A stretch of DNA of 17,751 nucleotides from an uncultured Erysipelotrichaceae bacterium. GTDB taxonomy: Bacteria > Bacillota_I > Bacilli_A > Erysipelotrichales > Erysipelotrichaceae. The notes beneath the pieces are model-generated. The model was not told where the DNA came from, made no database searches, and saw only the letters and a list, made by a program, of their open reading frames with translations. Positions 8,768-17,751 of this stretch are shown piece after piece. Position numbers and translations under genes: made by a program. The stretch is taken from NCBI GenBank assembly GCA_902782955.1, contig CACZPD010000036.1, forward strand, positions 1-17,751. Direction: 5' to 3'. The first letter of the stretch is position 1. Each line of letters starts with the position of its first letter.

Positions 8768-10111
8768 ATGAAAAAGAATTACTGGAACCGCCTGGCGGAA
8801 GAGGACGGTACAACAAGAGACGAACTGTTTCTGAAACTCCGTGATCTTTATCATGCTTACATGAAACATCTTTATAATGATCCGAAGGATGTTCCGGATT
8901 TCCGGATTCATTTTTCACTGGTCAAAAGAAGTCCGGATGAAGGGATCAGAAAAGGATACAAGATCGCGACCGTCACAAAAAGTTCAAATGAGATTCTTTT
9001 GTCAAAAGTCGGCGACGCGGCGGAAATCGAGAATTTTGAGAATTCCTATACATGTTACCATGACGGTTATTTCATCATGGTCGACTTCCGGGAGGACAAT
9101 ATTTCGCCGCTGCAGTTTATTACGGAGCAATTCTGCCGGGAGCTTCTGCACCAGCTGACTGCTTACGGCATCAGGCGGCTGAAGATCGCATATATGTTCG
9201 AATTGCTGATATCTTCGGGTGTGACGGAATTCTTCTACGGGTTTTACCGGCTGGATATCAATTTCATACAGAATCTGTGCGCTCTGACATATGAAAAAGC
9301 CTATGCCAACAGCAAACTTTACATACCGCGCTTCGATGTTACAAGGGACAGGAGAACGCGGAAAAACGGACTGGATGTCGCATTCAGCGATCCGGTCCTG
9401 TTTGTGCCTGATAATCTCAGACAGATCCGCAAACTGCTGGAATTATCAGACAAATCTGTTGCGCTTGTCATCGGTACAGGCAATAAAGTTATCGGGCTGA
9501 CAAGGGAAGAGGAAAATCCGACGGAATGTAAAGTACGGATGTGGGGGCATATGTCCTGGACCATTACCTATGAAGGCGGGAAAAAGCTGTCCTACTACAA
9601 TGCACGTTACCATATCCACGTACAGAAAACAGAATCCGGACTTCACAGGGAAATGCAGAATCTATTCCGCGGACTGGATGAAGACAGGATCCTGCGGCTG
9701 GAAACTGTCGTGCGTACGGCAGGAAGACAGCGCCACGGAACGATACTGATCATCGGATCTCCTGAAGAGATCAAACAGGAAACGCATCGGATCTGCACCA
9801 TGAAAAGCGGGACCGGGATCGCAGGCATTGATCTTTCAGGGGATGCGGAGATCGTCTCATATCTCACATCGATCGACGGCGCAGTCATCATGGACACTGA
9901 CTGCACCTGTGCCTGCATCGGTGCGATTCTGGACGGTGACGCTGTCACGAAGGGCAGTCTCGCCAGGGGAGCCAGATTCAATTCGACGCTCAATTACATC
10001 AAGCGAAAGGCAGAACTCGGCAGTATATTCATCGGGATCGTCGTTTCCGAAGACGGAACAGTGGATGCGGTGACCAAAGACCGTGTGATCCGGCTGAATC
10101 TCGGCAGTTAG
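8768..10111 (+). CDS. sensor-linked diadenylate cyclase (DAC/DisA_N)-like protein
   Basis: A 447-residue soluble protein with no signal peptide or membrane segment. The last ~135 residues look like a DAC domain, the fold that condenses two ATP to c-di-AMP: RQRHGTILIIGSPEE (320-334) as the opening strand, the catalytic DGA (370-372) in SIDGAVIMD, a glycine-rich AILDGD, GARFNST (401-407) where DisA has the RHR motif, and IVVSEDGTVDAV (424-435). Residues 1-310 match no domain I know and probably form an N-terminal sensor. The RHR position reads RFN, so it may belong to a DAC branch with a GARxNS-type motif, or be an altered-activity member. GGAG sits 7 bases before the ATG. Ten bases separate it from the cysteine desulfidase gene, so the two are probably co-transcribed. 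Family call is from memory of motifs. Confidence 0.65.
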   Translation: MKKNYWNRLAEEDGTTRDELFLKLRDLYHAYMKHLYNDPKDVPDFRIHFSLVKRSPDEGIRKGYKIATVTKSSNEILLSKVGDAAEIENFENSYTCYHDGYFIMVDFREDNISPLQFITEQFCRELLHQLTAYGIRRLKIAYMFELLISSGVTEFFYGFYRLDINFIQNLCALTYEKAYANSKLYIPRFDVTRDRRTRKNGLDVAFSDPVLFVPDNLRQIRKLLELSDKSVALVIGTGNKVIGLTREEENPTECKVRMWGHMSWTITYEGGKKLSYYNARYHIHVQKTESGLHREMQNLFRGLDEDRILRLETVVRTAGRQRHGTILIIGSPEEIKQETHRICTMKSGTGIAGIDLSGDAEIVSYLTSIDGAVIMDTDCTCACIGAILDGDAVTKGSLARGARFNSTLNYIKRKAELGSIFIGIVVSEDGTVDAVTKDRVIRLNLGS

Positions 10112-10121
10112 GAGAAGGAAT

Positions 10122-11408
10122 ATGGATAAAAACATCGAAACATCATTTCTGCAGATCATGGAAGAAGAAATGATCCCGGCAATGGGATGTACGGAACCGA
10201 TCGCCCTGGCGTATGCGGCGGCACTTGCGCGCAGGGAACTCGGGGAAAAGCCCGACAGCATTACGGCGGAATGCAGCGGCAACATGATCAAGAATGTCCG
10301 CTGTGTATTCATTCCCAATTCCCATGGTCTGACCGGTATTGAAACAGCCTGCGCAATGGGCGCTTTCGGCGGTGATCCCGGGAGGGTCATGGAAGTGCTG
10401 GCCGGTGTGACGGAGGAAGACCTTGCCGAGGCATCTGCGTTTGTAAAAGCCGGGAAATGTGAAGTGATCTATCTAGAATCCGATATCCCACTTCATTTCA
10501 TCATCACTCTGAAGAAAGCGGAGGATACTGTCAGCGTGGAAGTGCGTTATGATCACACAAATATTTATCAGATCACCAAAAACGGAGAAGTGTTATTCCT
10601 GAATGACAAGGTAGCGGAAAAAAGCGAATCGGCGGACCGTTCAGGACTGAATCTGCAGAATATCAAGACATTTGCGGATGAAATTGACCTTGCAAAGGTA
10701 GAACCTGTCATCTCCCGCCTGATCCGGTGCAATATGGCGATCGCGAGGGAAGGCATGAAAGGGACATACGGTATCGGGATCGGAAAACTGATCCTTGACC
10801 AGTATGAAGATGATATTTTTCATGAGATGCGGGCTTATGCTTCCGCTGCTTCGGAAGCACGGATGGGCGGATGTGATATGCCGGTCATCATCAATTCCGG
10901 ATCCGGCAACCAGGGCATCTCGTGTTCCGTACCGCTGATCGTCTATGCGGAAAAGAAGGGAATCGATGAAGAAAAACTGTATCGTTCGCTTGTTTTCTCC
11001 GCGCTCCTGACGATCTACCAGAAAGAATATATCGGCAAGCTCTCCGCTTTCTGCGGCGCGATTTCCGCAACGTGTTCTTCGGGTGCTGCCCTGACATATA
11101 TGCTGGGCGGGGACATCGATGCGATCGCCCATACGATCGACAGTACGCTGGCGATCACGCCCGGCATCATCTGCGACGGCGCAAAGATCTCCTGTGCCGC
11201 CAAGATCAACAGCGGTCTGGAGGCTTCGCTTCTTGCCCACCGCATGGTCATGAGCGGTAAACACTATCTTCCCGATACGGGAATCATCCGCACCCTGACC
11301 GACGAAACTGTAACCACTGTCGGCAATATCGGCAAAGAGGGAATGAAATATACCGACCAGGTGATCATTGCTTCCATGCTCAAGAAAAAAGAGAATTCTC
11401 AGACATGA
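10122..11408 (+). CDS. cyuA: L-cysteine desulfidase, CyuA/UPF0597 (serine dehydratase alpha-like) family
   Basis: A 428-residue cytosolic iron-sulfur enzyme of the CyuA (YhaM) family. Known members split L-cysteine to pyruvate, ammonia and sulfide using an oxygen-sensitive [4Fe-4S] cluster and no PLP. The signature MGCTEP is at 21-26 (Cys23). Further conserved cysteines are at FCGAISATCSSGAAL (Cys311) and GIICDGAK (Cys351), which together with Cys23 are the likely cluster ligands. SGSGNQG (259-265) is the glycine-rich substrate loop. The length is typical. It follows the diadenylate cyclase-like gene with GGAGAAGG as ribosome site. Its 3' end overlaps the facing methyltransferase gene by 10 bases. 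A different small substrate, such as serine, is possible. Confidence 0.87.
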   Translation: MDKNIETSFLQIMEEEMIPAMGCTEPIALAYAAALARRELGEKPDSITAECSGNMIKNVRCVFIPNSHGLTGIETACAMGAFGGDPGRVMEVLAGVTEEDLAEASAFVKAGKCEVIYLESDIPLHFIITLKKAEDTVSVEVRYDHTNIYQITKNGEVLFLNDKVAEKSESADRSGLNLQNIKTFADEIDLAKVEPVISRLIRCNMAIAREGMKGTYGIGIGKLILDQYEDDIFHEMRAYASAASEARMGGCDMPVIINSGSGNQGISCSVPLIVYAEKKGIDEEKLYRSLVFSALLTIYQKEYIGKLSAFCGAISATCSSGAALTYMLGGDIDAIAHTIDSTLAITPGIICDGAKISCAAKINSGLEASLLAHRMVMSGKHYLPDTGIIRTLTDETVTTVGNIGKEGMKYTDQVIIASMLKKKENSQT

Positions 11409-12248: not shown

Positions 12249-12257
12249 ACTTTTCGT

Positions 12258-12362
12258 GAACAGGGGTGCTGTTATGCTGAGAAATACCCTTATCACCTGA
12301 TCTAGTTAAGACTAGCGTAGGGAGTTCCAATACTCTTTGCGCCTTCGAACGGAGGTGTTTTT
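12258..12362 (+). ncRNA. TPP riboswitch (THI element) controlling thiT
   Basis: The aptamer shows the thi-box consensus: P1 arms GAAC (12258-12261) and GTTC (12324-12327), GGGGTGCT, then GCTGAGAAATACCCT, and ACCTGATCTAGTT followed by GACTAGCGTAGGGA. The expression platform is a hairpin, GCGCCTTC (12339-12346) with GGAGGTGT (12351-12358), loop GAAC, then Ts running to the ATG at 12363. It contains the ribosome site GGAGGTG, so thiamine pyrophosphate binding could block translation, transcription or both. Confidence 0.95.
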
Positions 12363-13270: not shown

Positions 13271-13678
13271 ATGAGATTTATTCCTGAAAGAAAAGATTTT
13301 ATGGACGCACTGCTGGAAGATACCGTTAATATGCCGGCTGCGCGCAGTGATCTGATGCGTACGGATATCCGCAAGACAAATGATGCGTATTTCCTGGACA
13401 TTGAGATGTGCGGGTATGCGAAAGAAGAGATCGAGATCAGCCTGTATAACGGAAATCTGACAGTCCGCGCACTTCATAAGGCAGATTCCCCGAAGAAAGA
13501 AGGCAGCGTTGTCCGGCAGGAGAGATATCACGGAACATGTTCCAGGACATATTATGTCGGATCTGCGTTAAGGGAAGAAGATGTCAGGGCATCTTATGAG
13601 AACGGTATTCTGACAGTTGAGATTCCGACTCCTGAAAAACGGGAAGCGGAACAGAAAAAATATATATCGATTGAATGA
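13271..13678 (+). CDS. Hsp20/alpha-crystallin small heat-shock protein, copy 1
   Basis: A 135-residue ATP-independent holdase chaperone. The alpha-crystallin domain runs from about residue 28 to 120: TDIRKTNDAYFLDIEMCGYA, the YAKEEIEISLYNGNLTV strand pair, and the hallmark GILTVEIP (112-119). The C-terminal tail KKYISIE carries an I-x-I element used for oligomer assembly. The N-terminal arm is short (about 27 residues). AAAGAGGT lies 8 bases before the ATG. It is the first gene under the CIRCE-controlled promoter and is followed 13 bases later by a paralogue. Confidence 0.93.
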   Translation: MRFIPERKDFMDALLEDTVNMPAARSDLMRTDIRKTNDAYFLDIEMCGYAKEEIEISLYNGNLTVRALHKADSPKKEGSVVRQERYHGTCSRTYYVGSALREEDVRASYENGILTVEIPTPEKREAEQKKYISIE

Positions 13679-13691
13679 GGAGGTATGAACT

Positions 13692-14114
13692 ATGAAATTC
13701 TCACCGGTAAACAGAACAGCTAACAGCGTATTTGATCTTTTTGATGATGTATTAAGCACACCGTTTTTCACGGCCAATCAGATGATGAAGACAGATATCC
13801 GTGAAAAAGACGGCAAGTATTACTTCGATATCGATCTGCCGGGTTATGCGAAAGAAGACATCGAGATCAGCCTGTACAACGGCAATCTTTCGATCAAAGC
13901 TGCACGCAATACATCGAACGAGGAAAAGGATGACAAAGGAACAGTCATCCGTCAGGAAAGATATACAGGTACATGTGAAAGAAGTTTCTATGTCGGCGAC
14001 GCGATCCGCGAAACCGATATCCACGCTTCCTTCAGCAACGGTATCCTGACGCTCGAGATCCCGACAGCTGAACAGAAAGAAAAAGAAGAGAAGAAATATA
14101 TCGACATTCTCTGA
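13692..14114 (+). CDS. Hsp20/alpha-crystallin small heat-shock protein, copy 2
   Basis: A 140-residue paralogue of the preceding gene. The alpha-crystallin domain (about 33-125) has the blocks TDIREKDGKYYFDIDLPGYA, YAKEDIEISLYNGNLSI and NGILTLEIP (116-124), with the C-terminal I-x-I in KKYIDIL. The N-terminal arm differs from copy 1 and contains FDLFDDVLSTPFF, an amphipathic segment typical of client-binding arms. The ribosome site GAGGAGGT (13677-13684) begins in the copy 1 stop codon, so both come from one transcript. The pair may form mixed oligomers (inference). Confidence 0.94.
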   Translation: MKFSPVNRTANSVFDLFDDVLSTPFFTANQMMKTDIREKDGKYYFDIDLPGYAKEDIEISLYNGNLSIKAARNTSNEEKDDKGTVIRQERYTGTCERSFYVGDAIRETDIHASFSNGILTLEIPTAEQKEKEEKKYIDIL

Positions 14115-14129
14115 GAGATCAGACACATG

Positions 14130-14157
14130 GCAGACGTCCGGTTGAACGTCTGCTTTT
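14130..14157 (+). terminator. terminator of the hsp20 pair
   Basis: GCAGACGT (14130-14137) pairs perfectly with ACGTCTGC (14146-14153) around an 8-base loop, followed by TTTT and CATTT. Confidence 0.87.
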
Positions 14158-14170
14158 CATTTGGTATGAT
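14142..14170 (+). promoter_or_regulatory. possible promoter of the phosphatase gene, overlapping the terminator
   Basis: TTGAAC (14142-14147), a 17-base spacer and TATGAT (14165-14170). The -35 lies in the loop and right arm of the hsp20 terminator. Confidence 0.55.
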
Positions 14171-14192
14171 GGCGGAAAGAAAGGGGTCCATT

Positions 14193-14978
14193 ATGCCCTC
14201 AGAAAGAGTAATTGAATTATCCGGAGCCACGAACTGCCGCAGTCTCGGCGGAATGAAAACCGCGGATGGCAGAAAGATCCGGAACCATGTCCTTCTGCGC
14301 TGCTGTGAGATATGCGGCATCAGCGATGAGGACTGCAGGATACTGAAAGATCAGGCAGGACTTGCGGCTGTTATCGATCTGCGTACACCGTCAGAAGCTG
14401 CACAGAGGCCTGACCGCAGGATACCGGGTGTGCGGTATTATTCCATGCCTGTATTTACCGAAGCGAAAGTCGGCATAACGCATGAAGAAGAGACCAGGAA
14501 GCAGGGGACAACACTGATCGGGATGGAATGGCTGTACCGGATGATGGTCTGTGATGAATCATGCCGTAAAGCATTTTCAGATGTACTTCATTTCCTGATC
14601 GGGTTTGATTACACAGAAGGGTCTGTTCTGTGGCACTGTTCGGAAGGAAAAGACAGATGCGGTCTTACAGCGGCGTTTACCGAGGCACTGTTAGGTGTAC
14701 CTGAAGAAGATATCCTGGCGGACTATCTGTATACCAACATAAGGAACGGCCCGAGAAATAAAGCTGAACTGGAGAATGCAGTCCGGAGCGGAAGGATCAC
14801 AAGGGAAGAAGCAGATCAGGCATGGCTGCTGTACTCAGCCCGTAATGAGTATCTTTTTGCGGCACAGAAAGGCATACAGGAATTGTTTGGAAATATAGAT
14901 TCATTTCTGCGGGACGGACTGATGATCACGGAGGAGGAAAAGCAGATCTTCCGGAAGAAAGTACTGACAGACAGCTGA
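14193..14978 (+). CDS. tyrosine/dual-specificity protein phosphatase (Y_phosphatase3 / IphP-like)
   Basis: A 261-residue cysteine-dependent phosphatase. The P-loop is HCSEGKDR (148-155): nucleophile Cys149 and phosphate-binding Arg155, with the Lys-Asp pair typical of the IphP/Y_phosphatase3 branch. The N-terminal NCRSLGG (14-20) corresponds to that family's NFRDLGG, and VIDLRTPSE (60-68) supplies the second conserved block. Family members remove phosphate from phosphotyrosine proteins and in some cases phosphoinositides; the target here is unknown. No signal peptide is seen. I chose ATG 14193 with AAAGGGG 6 bases upstream; an in-frame ATG at 14127 would start translation inside the preceding terminator. 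It appears to be a single-gene unit. Confidence 0.87.
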   Translation: MPSERVIELSGATNCRSLGGMKTADGRKIRNHVLLRCCEICGISDEDCRILKDQAGLAAVIDLRTPSEAAQRPDRRIPGVRYYSMPVFTEAKVGITHEEETRKQGTTLIGMEWLYRMMVCDESCRKAFSDVLHFLIGFDYTEGSVLWHCSEGKDRCGLTAAFTEALLGVPEEDILADYLYTNIRNGPRNKAELENAVRSGRITREEADQAWLLYSARNEYLFAAQKGIQELFGNIDSFLRDGLMITEEEKQIFRKKVLTDS

Positions 14979-14987
14979 TCGTTTCCG

Positions 14988-15016
14988 TTGACATTCCCTT
15001 TATAGAAGGATACTAT
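14988..15016 (+). promoter_or_regulatory. sigma-A promoter of the cysKE operon
   Basis: TTGACA (14988-14993), a 17-base spacer and TACTAT (15011-15016). A start near 15023 leaves a ~150-base leader. A TATAAT at 15028-15033 lacks a matching -35. Confidence 0.82.
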
Positions 15017-15048
15017 TAGGACAAGTTTATAATTGGAAAGGGGTCCGT

Positions 15049-15093
15049 ATGTTTCTGTTGTCTGTACAGAGCGGCTGCTGCCGCAAAGAATAG
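15049..15093 (+). CDS. cysteine leader peptide, MFLLSVQSGCCRKE
   Basis: A 14-codon reading frame in the cysK leader, preceded by AAAGGGG with 5-base spacing. Codons 10 and 11 are tandem TGC (15076-15081), followed by Arg-Lys-Glu and TAG at 15091-15093. Cysteine is normally rare, so two adjacent Cys codons directly before cysK-cysE are unlikely to be chance. The stop lies one base before the antiterminator arm, the spacing seen in trp- and his-type leader peptides. The peptide itself probably has no role beyond placing the ribosome. No homologue search was possible. Confidence 0.85.
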   Translation: MFLLSVQSGCCRKE

Positions 15094-15154
15094 GAAACCG
15101 GGCTCAAGTTTCAGAATTCAATCGTCGAGTCCGGTTTCAATGACCGGGCTTTTT
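15071..15154 (+). promoter_or_regulatory. ribosome-mediated cysteine attenuator of cysKE
   Basis: Two mutually exclusive structures follow the leader peptide. The antiterminator pairs AAACCGGGCTC (15095-15105) with GAGTCCGGTTT (15127-15137): 11 bp with one G-T pair. The terminator pairs GTCCGGT (15129-15135) with ACCGGGC (15143-15149), loop TTCAATG, then TTTTT. A small hairpin GCGGC-TGCT-GCCGC (15071-15084) covers the Cys codons. If Cys-tRNA is scarce the ribosome stalls at 15076-15081, leaving 15095-15105 free, and transcription continues. If the ribosome reaches the stop it covers that arm and the terminator forms. Confidence 0.86.
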
Positions 15155-15173
15155 ATAAAGCAGGAGGTATTAT

Positions 15174-16112
15174 ATGGGCAGGATCTATACTTCAGCCGCA
15201 CAGCTGATCGGAAGCACTCCGCTTCTGGAACTGGTCAATCTTGAGAAAAAACTGAATCTGAAAGCAAAACTGCTTGCGAAAGTAGAACTCTTTAATCCGG
15301 CCGGGTCTGTCAAGGACCGTGTGGCGGATAAGATGGTCCGGGACGCAGAGGAAAGAGGCATTCTGAAGCCCGGAGGAACGATCATTGAACCGACAAGCGG
15401 CAATACCGGCATAGGTCTCAGTATGATCGCTGCTGTAAAAGGATACCGCATGATCGTAGTCATGCCGGACACCATGTCTGCGGAGAGAATTGCCCTGATG
15501 AGGGGATACGGCGCGGAAGTGGTCCTGTCGGATGGCAAATACGGCATGAGCGGCGCAATCCGGAAAGCGGAAGAGATCGCAGAAAAAACACCCGGAAGTC
15601 TGATCGCCGGCCAGTTTGTCAATCCGGCAAACTGGAAGGCGCATTATGAAACAACAGGTCCTGAGATCTGGCAGGATACAGACGGGAAAGCGGATGTATT
15701 CGTTGCCGGAGTCGGAACCGGCGGAACGATTACCGGGACAGGCAGATATCTGAAGGAAAAGAATCCGGATATCCGGATTGTCGCGGTGGAACCGGACACC
15801 AGCGCAGTCCTGTCAGGAGATCCGGCAGGTGCCCACAAGATCCAGGGTATCGGTGCGGGATTTATCCCGGAAGTGCTCGATACCGGCATCTATGATGAGA
15901 TCATCCGGGTCCGGAATGAAGATGCTTTTGAGACAGGAAAGATGCTGGCAGTAACGGAAGGTCTTCTGACAGGTATTTCTTCCGGGGCCGCATTATGGGC
16001 TGCTGTTCAGCTTGCGGAACAGGAAACGTATGCCGGAAAGAATATCGTGGTGCTTCTCCCGGATTCCGGGGACCGCTATCTGTCTACGCCGCTTTACGGG
16101 AGTGGATCATGA
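15174..16112 (+). CDS. cysK: cysteine synthase A (O-acetylserine sulfhydrylase)
   Basis: A 312-residue fold-type II PLP enzyme that replaces the acetyl group of O-acetylserine with sulfide to form cysteine. The Schiff-base Lys47 lies in NPAGSVKDRV, the substrate/PLP loop is TSGNTGI (74-80), the phosphate loop is GVGTGGTITGTG, and GISSGAA holds the Ser near the PLP nitrogen. The length and motifs favour CysK over cystathionine beta-synthase, which carries CBS domains, though O-phosphoserine use cannot be excluded. AGGAGGT lies before the ATG, just after the attenuator. It overlaps cysE by 4 bases (ATGA). Confidence 0.95.
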   Translation: MGRIYTSAAQLIGSTPLLELVNLEKKLNLKAKLLAKVELFNPAGSVKDRVADKMVRDAEERGILKPGGTIIEPTSGNTGIGLSMIAAVKGYRMIVVMPDTMSAERIALMRGYGAEVVLSDGKYGMSGAIRKAEEIAEKTPGSLIAGQFVNPANWKAHYETTGPEIWQDTDGKADVFVAGVGTGGTITGTGRYLKEKNPDIRIVAVEPDTSAVLSGDPAGAHKIQGIGAGFIPEVLDTGIYDEIIRVRNEDAFETGKMLAVTEGLLTGISSGAALWAAVQLAEQETYAGKNIVVLLPDSGDRYLSTPLYGSGS

Positions 16113-16921
16113 ACCGCTACATTCAGCTGATCCGGGAACTGGATGAGGTTACAGATGAAGACCTGATCCACGGCGGTATGTTCCCGCAGAGGAAACAGGT
16201 CATCCGTCTGATGAAGGAGATCCAGGCACTGATGTTTCCGGACTACTATCAGTATCATGATCTTTTCGGGGAAGAACTGGTCCGGAGCCTTGAGACAGAT
16301 GTCAGGGAAACCATGATGTCCGAATTGTACCACAGCAATGAAAATGTAAATTTTATCGAGAAGAACGTGAATGCGTTTCTCCAGCAGCTGCCGGAAGTGA
16401 AGGGCAGGATCCTGACCGACATCCAGGCAATATACGACGGGGATCCGGCCGCGAAAAGCAAGGCACAGGTCATCCTCTGTTATCCCGGATTCTATGCGAT
16501 CTTTATTTACAGGATCGCACATATCCTCTATGTGGAAGGATTCTATTATATCGCGCGCATCATGTCGGAATATGCCCATGAAAAAACCGGGATCGATATC
16601 AATCCCGGAGCCAAGATCGGTGAGTATTTCTGCATTGATCACGGAACCGGCATCGTAATCGGTGAAACTGCCCGGCTGGGACATCACGTCAAACTGTATC
16701 AGGGCGTAACGATCGGCGCGAAGAGCTTTGAGATGGATGAGAATGGTTTTCCGGTCAAAGGCGGGAAACGTCATCCGGATATCGGGAATCATGTGGTCGT
16801 ATACGCAAACGCTACGATCCTCGGCGGAACGACCGTGATCGGAAACAATTCGGTGATCGGTGCCAACACATGGATCACTTCCTCAGTCGCGGATAACACC
16901 ACGATCTACTATACAAAGTAA
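16109..16921 (+). CDS. cysE: serine O-acetyltransferase
   Basis: A 270-residue enzyme that acetylates L-serine with acetyl-CoA to give O-acetylserine, the substrate of CysK. It has an N-terminal helical region (to about 150), then a left-handed beta-helix built from hexapeptide repeats: GIDINPGAKIGEYFCI, the active-site IDHGTGIVIGETA (His178), GVTIG, and RHPDIGNHVVVYANATILGG. The N-terminal part is longer than in the shortest forms. The C terminus ends IYYTK, without the terminal Ile that docks into CysK in the classical complex. I start it at 16109, where ATG overlaps the cysK stop; an earlier in-frame start lies deep within cysK. It is the last gene of the operon. Confidence 0.93.
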   Translation: MNRYIQLIRELDEVTDEDLIHGGMFPQRKQVIRLMKEIQALMFPDYYQYHDLFGEELVRSLETDVRETMMSELYHSNENVNFIEKNVNAFLQQLPEVKGRILTDIQAIYDGDPAAKSKAQVILCYPGFYAIFIYRIAHILYVEGFYYIARIMSEYAHEKTGIDINPGAKIGEYFCIDHGTGIVIGETARLGHHVKLYQGVTIGAKSFEMDENGFPVKGGKRHPDIGNHVVVYANATILGGTTVIGNNSVIGANTWITSSVADNTTIYYTK

Positions 16922-16946
16922 AAACCGCTGTTCAAACAGCGGTTTT
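16921..16946. terminator. bidirectional terminator between cysE and the LCP gene
   Basis: AAAACCGCTG (16921-16930) and CAGCGGTTTT (16937-16946) form a perfect 10-bp stem with loop TTCAAA. The T-run on one strand and A-run on the other allow use from both sides. It begins at the last base of the cysE stop. Confidence 0.9.
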
Positions 16947-16951
16947 CTTCA

Positions 16952-17751
16952 TCAGTAATGGACGCCTTCAGGGATCTCCTGCTGTTCCATGATATTGCCG
17001 TTGATGACATTATCCATGACGGAACTGACGAAATCCACCTGGTTTTCATAAGGGAATACAACGGACAGTTTCTGACCCGGCGCTGCCGCACAGACTGCTC
17101 CGCCGGTCGTACCCAGAACACCATACCGTACGGTGTTCCATGTGACCTGTTCATCCAGCTGCTTCTCGCAGATGCCGTAGATGGCACTGTCGGACAGGTC
17201 TGTCACGAAGGTTCCTTTCATTGCGGAAAGCAGTTTATCGAACTTCGTTATGACTTCCGGGGAAGTGACTTTATCCAGGATCGCGCTCATAACGATCTGC
17301 TGGTGCATGTTGCGGCCGAAGTCACCGTCCGGCAGGGTATAACGCTCCCTGACGTAATACAGCGCAGCCTGGCCGTCCAGATGGATATTGCCTTCTTCGA
17401 ACTGGTAATTCTTATCCCAGGTATAGCGGAATGCGTATGGGTTGTATACATCAATGCCGCCCAGCGCATCAATGATCTTCTTATATGTTGTGAAGTTGAT
17501 CAGGACATAATGATCGACCGGAATTCCGAAATAATTGCTGAGACCGCTTAATGTATTCTCGATCCCGTTGATGCCCAGATGCGTCAGTTTGTCATTGCCG
17601 TATCCGAGCGCCGGATTTGGAATGTAGGAATCACGCGGCACGGAAACGATGGAGATCTGATGCGTATTCGGATTGACCGTTACGAGCATATTTACATCGG
17701 TCCTGCCGATCAGACTGAGTTCGCCTTCCTGGTCATTTCCGCCGAAGAATA
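16952..17751 (-). CDS. LytR-CpsA-Psr (LCP) family cell-wall ligase, C-terminal part
   Basis: The reading frame stays open to the window edge, so the N-terminal cytoplasmic tail and membrane anchor lie outside; the first internal Met is at 17689. About 265 residues are seen. LCP features in order: GRTDVNMLVTVNP, VSVPRDSYIPNP, NDKLTHLGINGIENTL, FGIPVDHYVLINF, LGGIDVYNPY, and the Arg-bearing DGDFGRNMHQQIVMSAI. Family members transfer teichoic acid or polysaccharide from lipid carriers to peptidoglycan outside the membrane. The visible Arg and Asp residues of the pyrophosphate-lipid pocket are kept. The family's second Arg in GR-x-x-RQQ reads His here. It is convergent with cysE. Confidence 0.9.
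   Translation of the reverse strand, partial: FFGGNDQEGELSLIGRTDVNMLVTVNPNTHQISIVSVPRDSYIPNPALGYGNDKLTHLGINGIENTLSGLSNYFGIPVDHYVLINFTTYKKIIDALGGIDVYNPYAFRYTWDKNYQFEEGNIHLDGQAALYYVRERYTLPDGDFGRNMHQQIVMSAILDKVTSPEVITKFDKLLSAMKGTFVTDLSDSAIYGICEKQLDEQVTWNTVRYGVLGTTGGAVCAAAPGQKLSVVFPYENQVDFVSSVMDNVINGNIMEQQEIPEGVHY

Follow-up and report, generated by a model that had tools for sequence, protein, structure and literature searches.

A putative ribosome-sensed cysteine attenuator ahead of cysK–cysE in Erysipelotrichaceae, and similar leaders with other codon runs

How a member of the Bacillota might adjust its cysteine synthesis genes to the charging of Cys-tRNA is the question raised by a 17,751-nucleotide stretch of DNA from an uncultured Erysipelotrichaceae bacterium, hereafter the window. 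In this phylum, control of cysteine genes is commonly attributed to CymR or T-boxes. The window encodes, on the plus strand, the cysteine synthase A gene cysK (15174–16112, stop included; TIGR01139, 432.8 bits against a cut-off of 350.95) and a cysE-like gene for a serine O-acetyltransferase of the EpsC type (16109–16921; NF041874, 154 bits against a cut-off of 150), which overlaps the cysK stop with its start (ATGA) and falls below the general cysE model TIGR01172 (168.2 bits against a cut-off of 210.65). The leader ahead of cysK has a phosphatase-family gene (14127–14978; PF13350) as its upstream neighbor. The initial annotation had proposed a peptide-based cysteine attenuator here, a reading supported by recurrence of the leader frame, covariation of its hairpins and the geometry of stall site and stop codon. 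From its sequence, we put at roughly 90% the probability that the leader is a ribosome-mediated, Cys-specific transcription attenuator of cysK–cysE.

Several other features of the window were recorded alongside. A serine dehydratase alpha-chain family protein (PF03313), which we presume might be a cysteine desulfidase, is encoded at 10122–11408, 3.8 kb before cysK. Between its gene and the his operon sits a gene (8768–10111) whose product matches a DACNH sensor and comes narrowly short of the cut-off for DAC (diadenylate cyclase-like). A tandem pair of small heat-shock (Hsp20-type) genes occupies 13271–14114, and a TPP riboswitch (12252–12340) precedes a gene that resembles ThiT (56 bits, below cut-off).

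The promoter, ribosome site, 14-codon tandem-Cys frame and two hairpins that had been claimed for the leader are all found in the sequence, on the plus strand. A promoter-like pair (14988–15016), presumably setting the transcription start, consists of TTGACA (14988–14993) and TACTAT (15011–15016) 17 nt apart; the promoter scan that detects it is weak by itself, with 5 found in 14000–17000 against 3.4 expected. An SD-like AAGGGG (15038–15043) leads the putative leader frame MFLLSVQSGCCRKE (15049–15093), which runs from the ATG at 15049 to a TAG at 15091–15093 and holds the candidate regulatory codons TGC TGC (Cys-Cys) at 15076–15081. Four segments can be distinguished by duplex energy (segment 1) and by folding together with covariation (segments 2–4, with that of the family terminator for segment 4). 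Segment 1 (15033–15057) is the SD/start region of the frame and is complementary to segment 2; its core GTCCG-tat-GTTTC (15043–15055) pairs with GAAACCGGGC (15094–15103). Segment 2 (GAAACCGGGCTC, 15094–15105) adjoins the stop codon and forms the left arm of the antiterminator, segment 3 (GAGTCCGGTTTC, 15127–15138) is at once the antiterminator right arm and the terminator left arm, and segment 4 (GACCGGGCTT, 15142–15151) is the terminator right arm. The two hairpins are thus mutually exclusive through segment 3, and not, as had been claimed, through a left arm common to both. The antiterminator (15094–15105 with 15127–15138; −18.1 kcal/mol) was likewise correctly recognized as a hairpin, but it comprises 12 bp rather than 11.

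Both hairpins are more stable than expected by chance. The antiterminator has a z of −5.5 and the 10-bp terminator (15127–15136 with 15142–15151; −15.2 kcal/mol) a z of −4.3, each with 0 of 200 dinucleotide shuffles as good, values that are flattered by trimming the segments to the hairpins. The full leader (15023–15156) folds with a z of −3.7 (0/200 shuffles as good) and the sub-stretch 15093–15156 with a z of −2.4 (7/200). The window terminator is absent from the output of a generic terminator scan, in our view because its stem consumes part of the T run (15150–15154).

Attenuators of the E. coli trp/his type combine tandem codons for the product amino acid with a 2:3 antiterminator, a 3:4 intrinsic terminator and a 1:2 alternative. 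In the corresponding mechanism proposed here, RNA polymerase would make the leader with a ribosome translating MFLLSVQSGCC... close behind. If Cys-tRNA is sufficient, the ribosome would reach the stop codon and its leading edge would mask roughly 12 nt downstream, corresponding to segment 2; segment 3 would then pair with segment 4, and transcription would end before cysK. If Cys-tRNA is scarce, the ribosome would stall on the two Cys codons, from where it would not cover segment 2, and the free segment 2 would pair with the emerging segment 3, allowing read-through into cysK–cysE. Were the frame left untranslated, segment 1 would pair with segment 2, freeing segments 3 and 4 for termination. 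The claimed trp-type spacing from Cys codons and stop to the left arm agrees with this geometry. That the frame is translated, that ribosomes stall on it, and which way and how strongly cysteine acts are predictions made from the sequence.

If the frame serves as a cysteine sensor, its Cys codons would be expected to recur before cysK in relatives. An initial CysK scan covered 80 loci, among which several Solobacterium/Erysipelotrichaceae metagenome-assembled genomes had Cys-rich frames before cysK; the search was then extended to 272 genomes from the family to which one such Solobacterium genome belongs (Erysipelotrichaceae, we infer), 224 of which had a CysK match. Our set of 91 cysK upstream regions comprises the window and 90 listed matches (30 loci and 60 regions), mostly top-ranked, from 82 genomes. 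Under a strict rule (ATG, SD, 6–40 codons, CC, at most 250 nt from the gene), a frame with tandem Cys codons is present in 50 of the 91, and one with CCC or longer in 35. Forty rounds of dinucleotide shuffling gave CC frames at a mean of 0.75 (maximum 4) and CCC frames at a mean of 0.00. No CC frame occurs on the reverse strand of the 91 regions, nor in 15 upstream regions of the control gene cysS. Cys runs use TGT (118) and TGC (45), and therefore the amino acid, not the codon, is conserved. A lack of Cys codon conservation in relatives had been named beforehand as a refuting outcome; what we find instead is Cys runs kept by amino acid in mixed codons, with two Cys codons in the window leader and three to six in many relatives. 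A promoter match of at least 9/12 precedes the frame in 34 of 42 leaders, the window included, against a fraction of 0.20 among mononucleotide shuffles.

The strict rule finds no frame in 41 of the 91 regions. Eleven of these were inspected: three have Cys runs whose start or SD the rule missed (L141, L163, L176), one has C-M-C (L158), and seven have no Cys run. The closest relative among the matches listed is genome G074, with a CysK 95% identical to that of the window and an identical leader peptide. Its −35 and −10 elements, SD, arms 2 and 3 and all 45 nt of the frame are those of the window; the differences fall in the upstream gene end, between the two promoter hexamers, in the 2:3 loop and in the spacer that leads to cysK, along with one T fewer where arm 4 meets the T run. 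In genome G015, a frame about 280 nt before cysK (L198; MHAFLLSVQSRRCRCMSVKTL) has FLLSVQS in common with the window peptide.

Cys-containing frames were also seen before cysK in more distant bacteria. Four Synergistaceae/Synergistales loci (L045, L050, L058, L075) have leader frames with CCC to CCCCC, and our script found no terminator in the 79–127 nt of G-poor sequence after the frame; their output is perhaps Rho-type or translational. Two Lachnospiraceae loci (L035, L073) have VMCCCC frames 38 and 100 nt from cysK, again with no terminator found. Having no terminator, these Synergistaceae and Lachnospiraceae poly-Cys frames were left out of the family set. In five Clostridia loci (L013, L014, L015, L016, L022), cysK is preceded by a short frame in which Arg and Cys form motifs (RRC, RCC, CRCR), and in all of these except L016 the frame follows a promoter-like pair and, by eye, an AACC..AAGGTNGG-like repeat that is perhaps an Rrf2-type operator.

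Paired structures were compared across the leaders found by the strict rule, with terminator loops of up to 20 nt permitted; with a limit of 10 nt, several relatives were wrongly assigned or overlooked. Terminator and antiterminator are present in 44 of the 50 strict leaders (the terminators of L136 and L190 were added by hand), and the six without such a terminator (L150, L164, L169, L174, L188, L196) were left out of the alignment, as were a second frame of L128 and also L168 and L184, neither of which belongs to the 50. In the MAFFT alignment of these 44 leaders, on which covariation was computed, the antiterminator with its internal hairpin is paired in 78.2% of cells and has a covariation of 0.325 against 0.181 in shuffles that ignore relatedness (0/500 reach it; slid versions at most 0.157). 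Its two-sided pair changes (14 against 11.9 shuffled; 36/500 reach 14) and further pair types (46 against 41.0; 13/500 reach 46) lie moderately above the shuffles. The terminator is paired in 82.4% of cells with a covariation of 0.295 against 0.162 in the same kind of shuffles, relatedness again ignored (0/500; slid versions at most 0.109), and the same two stricter measures are reached by 10/500 and 0/500 shuffles, respectively. In three leaders (L129, L139, L140), columns 25/126/147 change from C-G-C to U-A-U, so that arm 3 has A for G and both partners have U, as expected of an arm common to both helices. In arm 4 the window and L111 are offset by one column and count partly against the terminator there. 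Covariation of both alternative hairpins in relatives, a test put forward with the original proposal, is thus borne out in the 44-leader alignment.

Complementarity of segment 1 to segment 2 was assessed within 42 leaders, including both window-type copies and leaving out L136 and L190. In the SD regions, GACGGCG and similar sequences ahead of the SD are matched by ones such as CGCCGTC after arm 2. Duplexes of the SD region with the 50 nt that follow the Cys run have a mean energy of −21.2 kcal/mol within a leader and −16.4 kcal/mol across leaders, and 0 of 10,000 permutations reach the observed mean. The property varies, a leader's own pair ranking 37th or lower of 42 in three leaders; in the window, the SD/start region and arm 2 form a duplex of −18.0 kcal/mol. 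This complementarity completes the trp-type 1:2/2:3/3:4 layout.

The window leader is a divergent variant with textbook timing and the odd one out in its family. Its stop codon, like that of G074, lies 9 nt after the Cys run, against 24–63 nt in 40 other measured leaders, in which the stop falls beyond the core of arm 2; the window-type leader also has no internal hairpin, whereas most relatives have a nested one. We built two models, R1 trained on the 44 Cys leaders only and the wider R2 on 56 sequences that include His and Met leaders, and the G074 leader was not recovered by genome-wide searches with either, its three weak R2 matches not lying at its leader. These differences, together with an SD context unlike that of the relatives, would fit an independent origin of the window-type leader, a reading that is compatible with attenuation and under which the family evidence would apply by analogy. 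We regard this as unlikely though by no means negligible. Window-type leaders and relatives precede the same gene with the same four-segment order, their CCGG-centred arms align in register for 2:3, and the window leader scores 32.6 bits with R1, of which it is itself a training row.

Attenuators of this family may not be confined to cysteine. R1 has a match at E ≤ 0.01 in 78 of the 272 family genomes, many of the weak ones probably due to chance (few of these were inspected), and R2 has one in 39 of 40 chosen genomes. Across the order, R2 at E ≤ 1e-4 matches 49 of 315 genomes, all from the family; the scaffold was not seen outside it in this search, the stricter filters of which also missed the G074 leader. 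Cys runs were found before an MFS transporter operon (L281 and L282; MFS_2 tested in L281), before a protein without a family match (L280) and before an ATC hydrolase (L273; PF14196), this last leader scoring only 29.6 bits with R2. Runs of HHHHH (L279) and HHHHHH (L278) precede an amino-acid ABC transporter, with SBP_bac_3 in L279, where all listed NCBIfam matches of the binding protein and ATPase are below cut-off. An MMM run precedes MetN-MetI-MetQ (L283; MetI over cut-off, MetN and MetQ below), and a Met-Met-Cys-Cys run precedes metY (TIGR01326, over cut-off) and then a cysK-like gene (L284).

Searches that began from the genes gave a similar picture. A poly-His frame stands before 7 of 14 ABC binding-protein matches, one more of which begins at a contig edge, and a Met run before 3 of 30 MetN matches (L332, L338, L358); L318, L330 and L332 are the same loci as L279, L278 and L283. 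The poly-His leaders (L318, L320, L322–L325, L330) lie about 175–220 nt before the binding-protein gene and combine a terminator-like hairpin with arms of the CCGG type (CCGTACT in L323). The leader frames before metN contain MMM or MMMM, and two have a scaffold unlike the Cys one: L338 and L358, with terminators different by eye, look like separate inventions. Repeated ATG codons in Met runs can, moreover, represent alternative starts.

Model scores require care in this comparison. L254 (G051:C8), which scores 34.2 bits with R1 and has hits on both strands but no visible codon run, was judged a chance terminator, as were L257, L258, L259, L274–L277, L286 and L287, in which no codon run was seen. 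Because chance terminators reach such scores, an R1 or R2 score of about 25–34 bits is by itself no proof of membership, and it is therefore chiefly the codon run and the gene that speak for homology of the MMM leader (L283; 29.4 bits with R1). The codon run of L272 (G133:C80) is unreadable, as this locus starts right at the edge of a contig. Outside the model, His leaders L318 and L330 and Cys leaders L138 and L166 have the SD context AAAGGAGACGGGATATG in common, which argues for common descent; convergence of the Cys and His leaders is a possible alternative. On balance, we lean slightly toward a single family-wide attenuator scaffold that acts as a re-codable amino-acid sensor cassette, in which the SD region and the 1-2-3-4 arms are kept and the codon run is exchanged. 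Examples of such a cassette would be Cys at cysK, the ATC hydrolase and the MFS transporter; His at the amino-acid ABC transporter; MMM at metNIQ; and Met-Met-Cys-Cys at metY-cysK.

The cysteine leaders occur alongside T-boxes. The window's only T-box over cut-off (RF00230, 1123–1360) lies ahead of hisZ, the first gene of the his operon, as the initial annotation had stated. That annotation saw in the pairing of this T-box with a leader peptide an unusual mix of two tRNA-charging sensors, and the relatives take the observation further, with T-boxes of TGC specifier at cysS. Thirteen relatives have 13–23 T-box matches each at E ≤ 0.001. G074 has 17, of which 9 are over cut-off, and none precedes cysS or cysK as judged by eye from the downstream genes, its cysS being a fragment. 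A T-box core is present upstream of cysS in 6 of 15 loci (G001, G002, G006, G058, G059, G082), and the Rfam gathering score is reached at 3 of 16 cysS loci scanned. In the register used to read specifiers, all seven G074 T-boxes tried gave the expected codon, including CAC at hisZ, with a second match in the stretch for the metG and serS T-boxes. The specifier is TGC in five of the six cysS T-boxes (G002, G006, G058, G059, G082). At the cysS of G001 (L294), the same register reads AGC (Ser). Four genomes (G002, G006, G059, G082) have a Cys leader at cysK together with the TGC-specifier T-box at cysS, and G058 combines such a T-box with the MMCC leader at metY-cysK. An Rfam scan of 18 MetN loci also found T-boxes at 8 of them, about 0.9 kb ahead of metN, where they probably stand before a preceding gene.

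Given that the window contains other RNA sensors, namely this T-box and the TPP riboswitch, the leader might be a genuine RNA switch with an incidental frame and another input, be it a metabolite, tRNA read by a T-box, or a protein. We consider this very improbable. The leader has no Rfam family at threshold, its only match up to an E of 5 being Trp_leader (RF00513; 14 bits against a cut-off of 41, E 3.4), and membership was rejected; identity as a T-box was rejected as well, the leader containing neither an RF00230 match nor the T-box core TGGNACC. That the amino acid is kept in mixed codons, and that runs match gene function at the His and Met loci, points instead to translation as the input. 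That this translation might report a general slowdown, from starvation or antibiotics, rather than cysteine is barely credible: the antiterminator would be favored by a stall anywhere on the frame ahead of arm 2, but as many as six Cys codons precede cysK, and these, like the His or Met runs before matching genes, imply specificity. Also scarcely tenable is an ordinary intergenic terminator, ending the phosphatase gene or acting constitutively and in part, with an accidental short frame, for although a terminator-like hairpin does sit between two genes and short frames are common, a promoter-like pair and SD-led frame separate the upstream gene from the terminator, the antiterminator arm covaries in relatives, and the recurrence of the Cys frame (50/91 against 0.75 by shuffling) was our ground for rejecting it.

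Our analysis would thus place a ribosome-sensed, terminator-based Cys attenuator in Bacillota, in dozens of genomes of one family. Some of these apparently retain a Cys T-box at cysS, so two mechanisms that read the charging of the same tRNA could be compared within one cell. Common ancestry of the Cys, His and Met leaders, if real, would mean that leader peptides can be re-targeted by a few codon changes and are not always invented anew; such ancestry would make the evolution of an RNA regulator directly testable and offer a possible scaffold for amino-acid biosensors.

Ribosome-mediated attenuation is itself already known in Bacillota from His and Leu leaders, and the cassette idea would be the new part. 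Among the matches listed from the open PMC literature, we saw neither an attenuator with a Cys leader peptide in Bacillota nor a Met leader peptide. His leader-peptide attenuators are predicted at the his operons of six Erysipelotrichales species (PMC9413887), in the same mechanism class and order as the leaders described here but for histidine; the word 'cysteine' is absent from the main text of that report. The His leader peptides described at Bacillus hisZ/hisS paralogues (PMC2965389) are likewise of the same class and concern histidine. The S. aureus ilv operon has a Leu-rich attenuator peptide with genetic evidence for ribosome-mediated attenuation (PMC5794164); as described there, it shares with our leaders the mechanism and the Bacillota host but differs in amino acid (leucine), genus and genes. 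Outside this phylum, the uORFC-8-2 motif before cysS of Rhodobacterales has a short tandem-Cys frame and an intrinsic terminator, and ribosome-mediated attenuation is proposed for it (PMC8632094). By that description it is set apart by its gene, cysS, its alphaproteobacterial host and the position of its Cys codons inside the first stem, unlike those of the window leader. Poly-Cys leaders are known at actinobacterial cys operons (PMC1262725), and cysteine-dependent attenuation has been reported in M. smegmatis (Canestrari et al. 2020, cited in PMC9031893). Runs of Cys codons are common to the actinobacterial leaders and ours, but no conserved terminator hairpins were found in the former (PMC1262725), whereas here a terminator is accompanied by a covarying antiterminator. 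There is also a likeness to the trp/his-type attenuators (RF00513, RF00514), with which the window leader shares the four-segment design; what differs is the input, here cysteine, the occurrence of its relatives in the Solobacterium family and, in most of them, a nested hairpin with arm 2 inside the frame.
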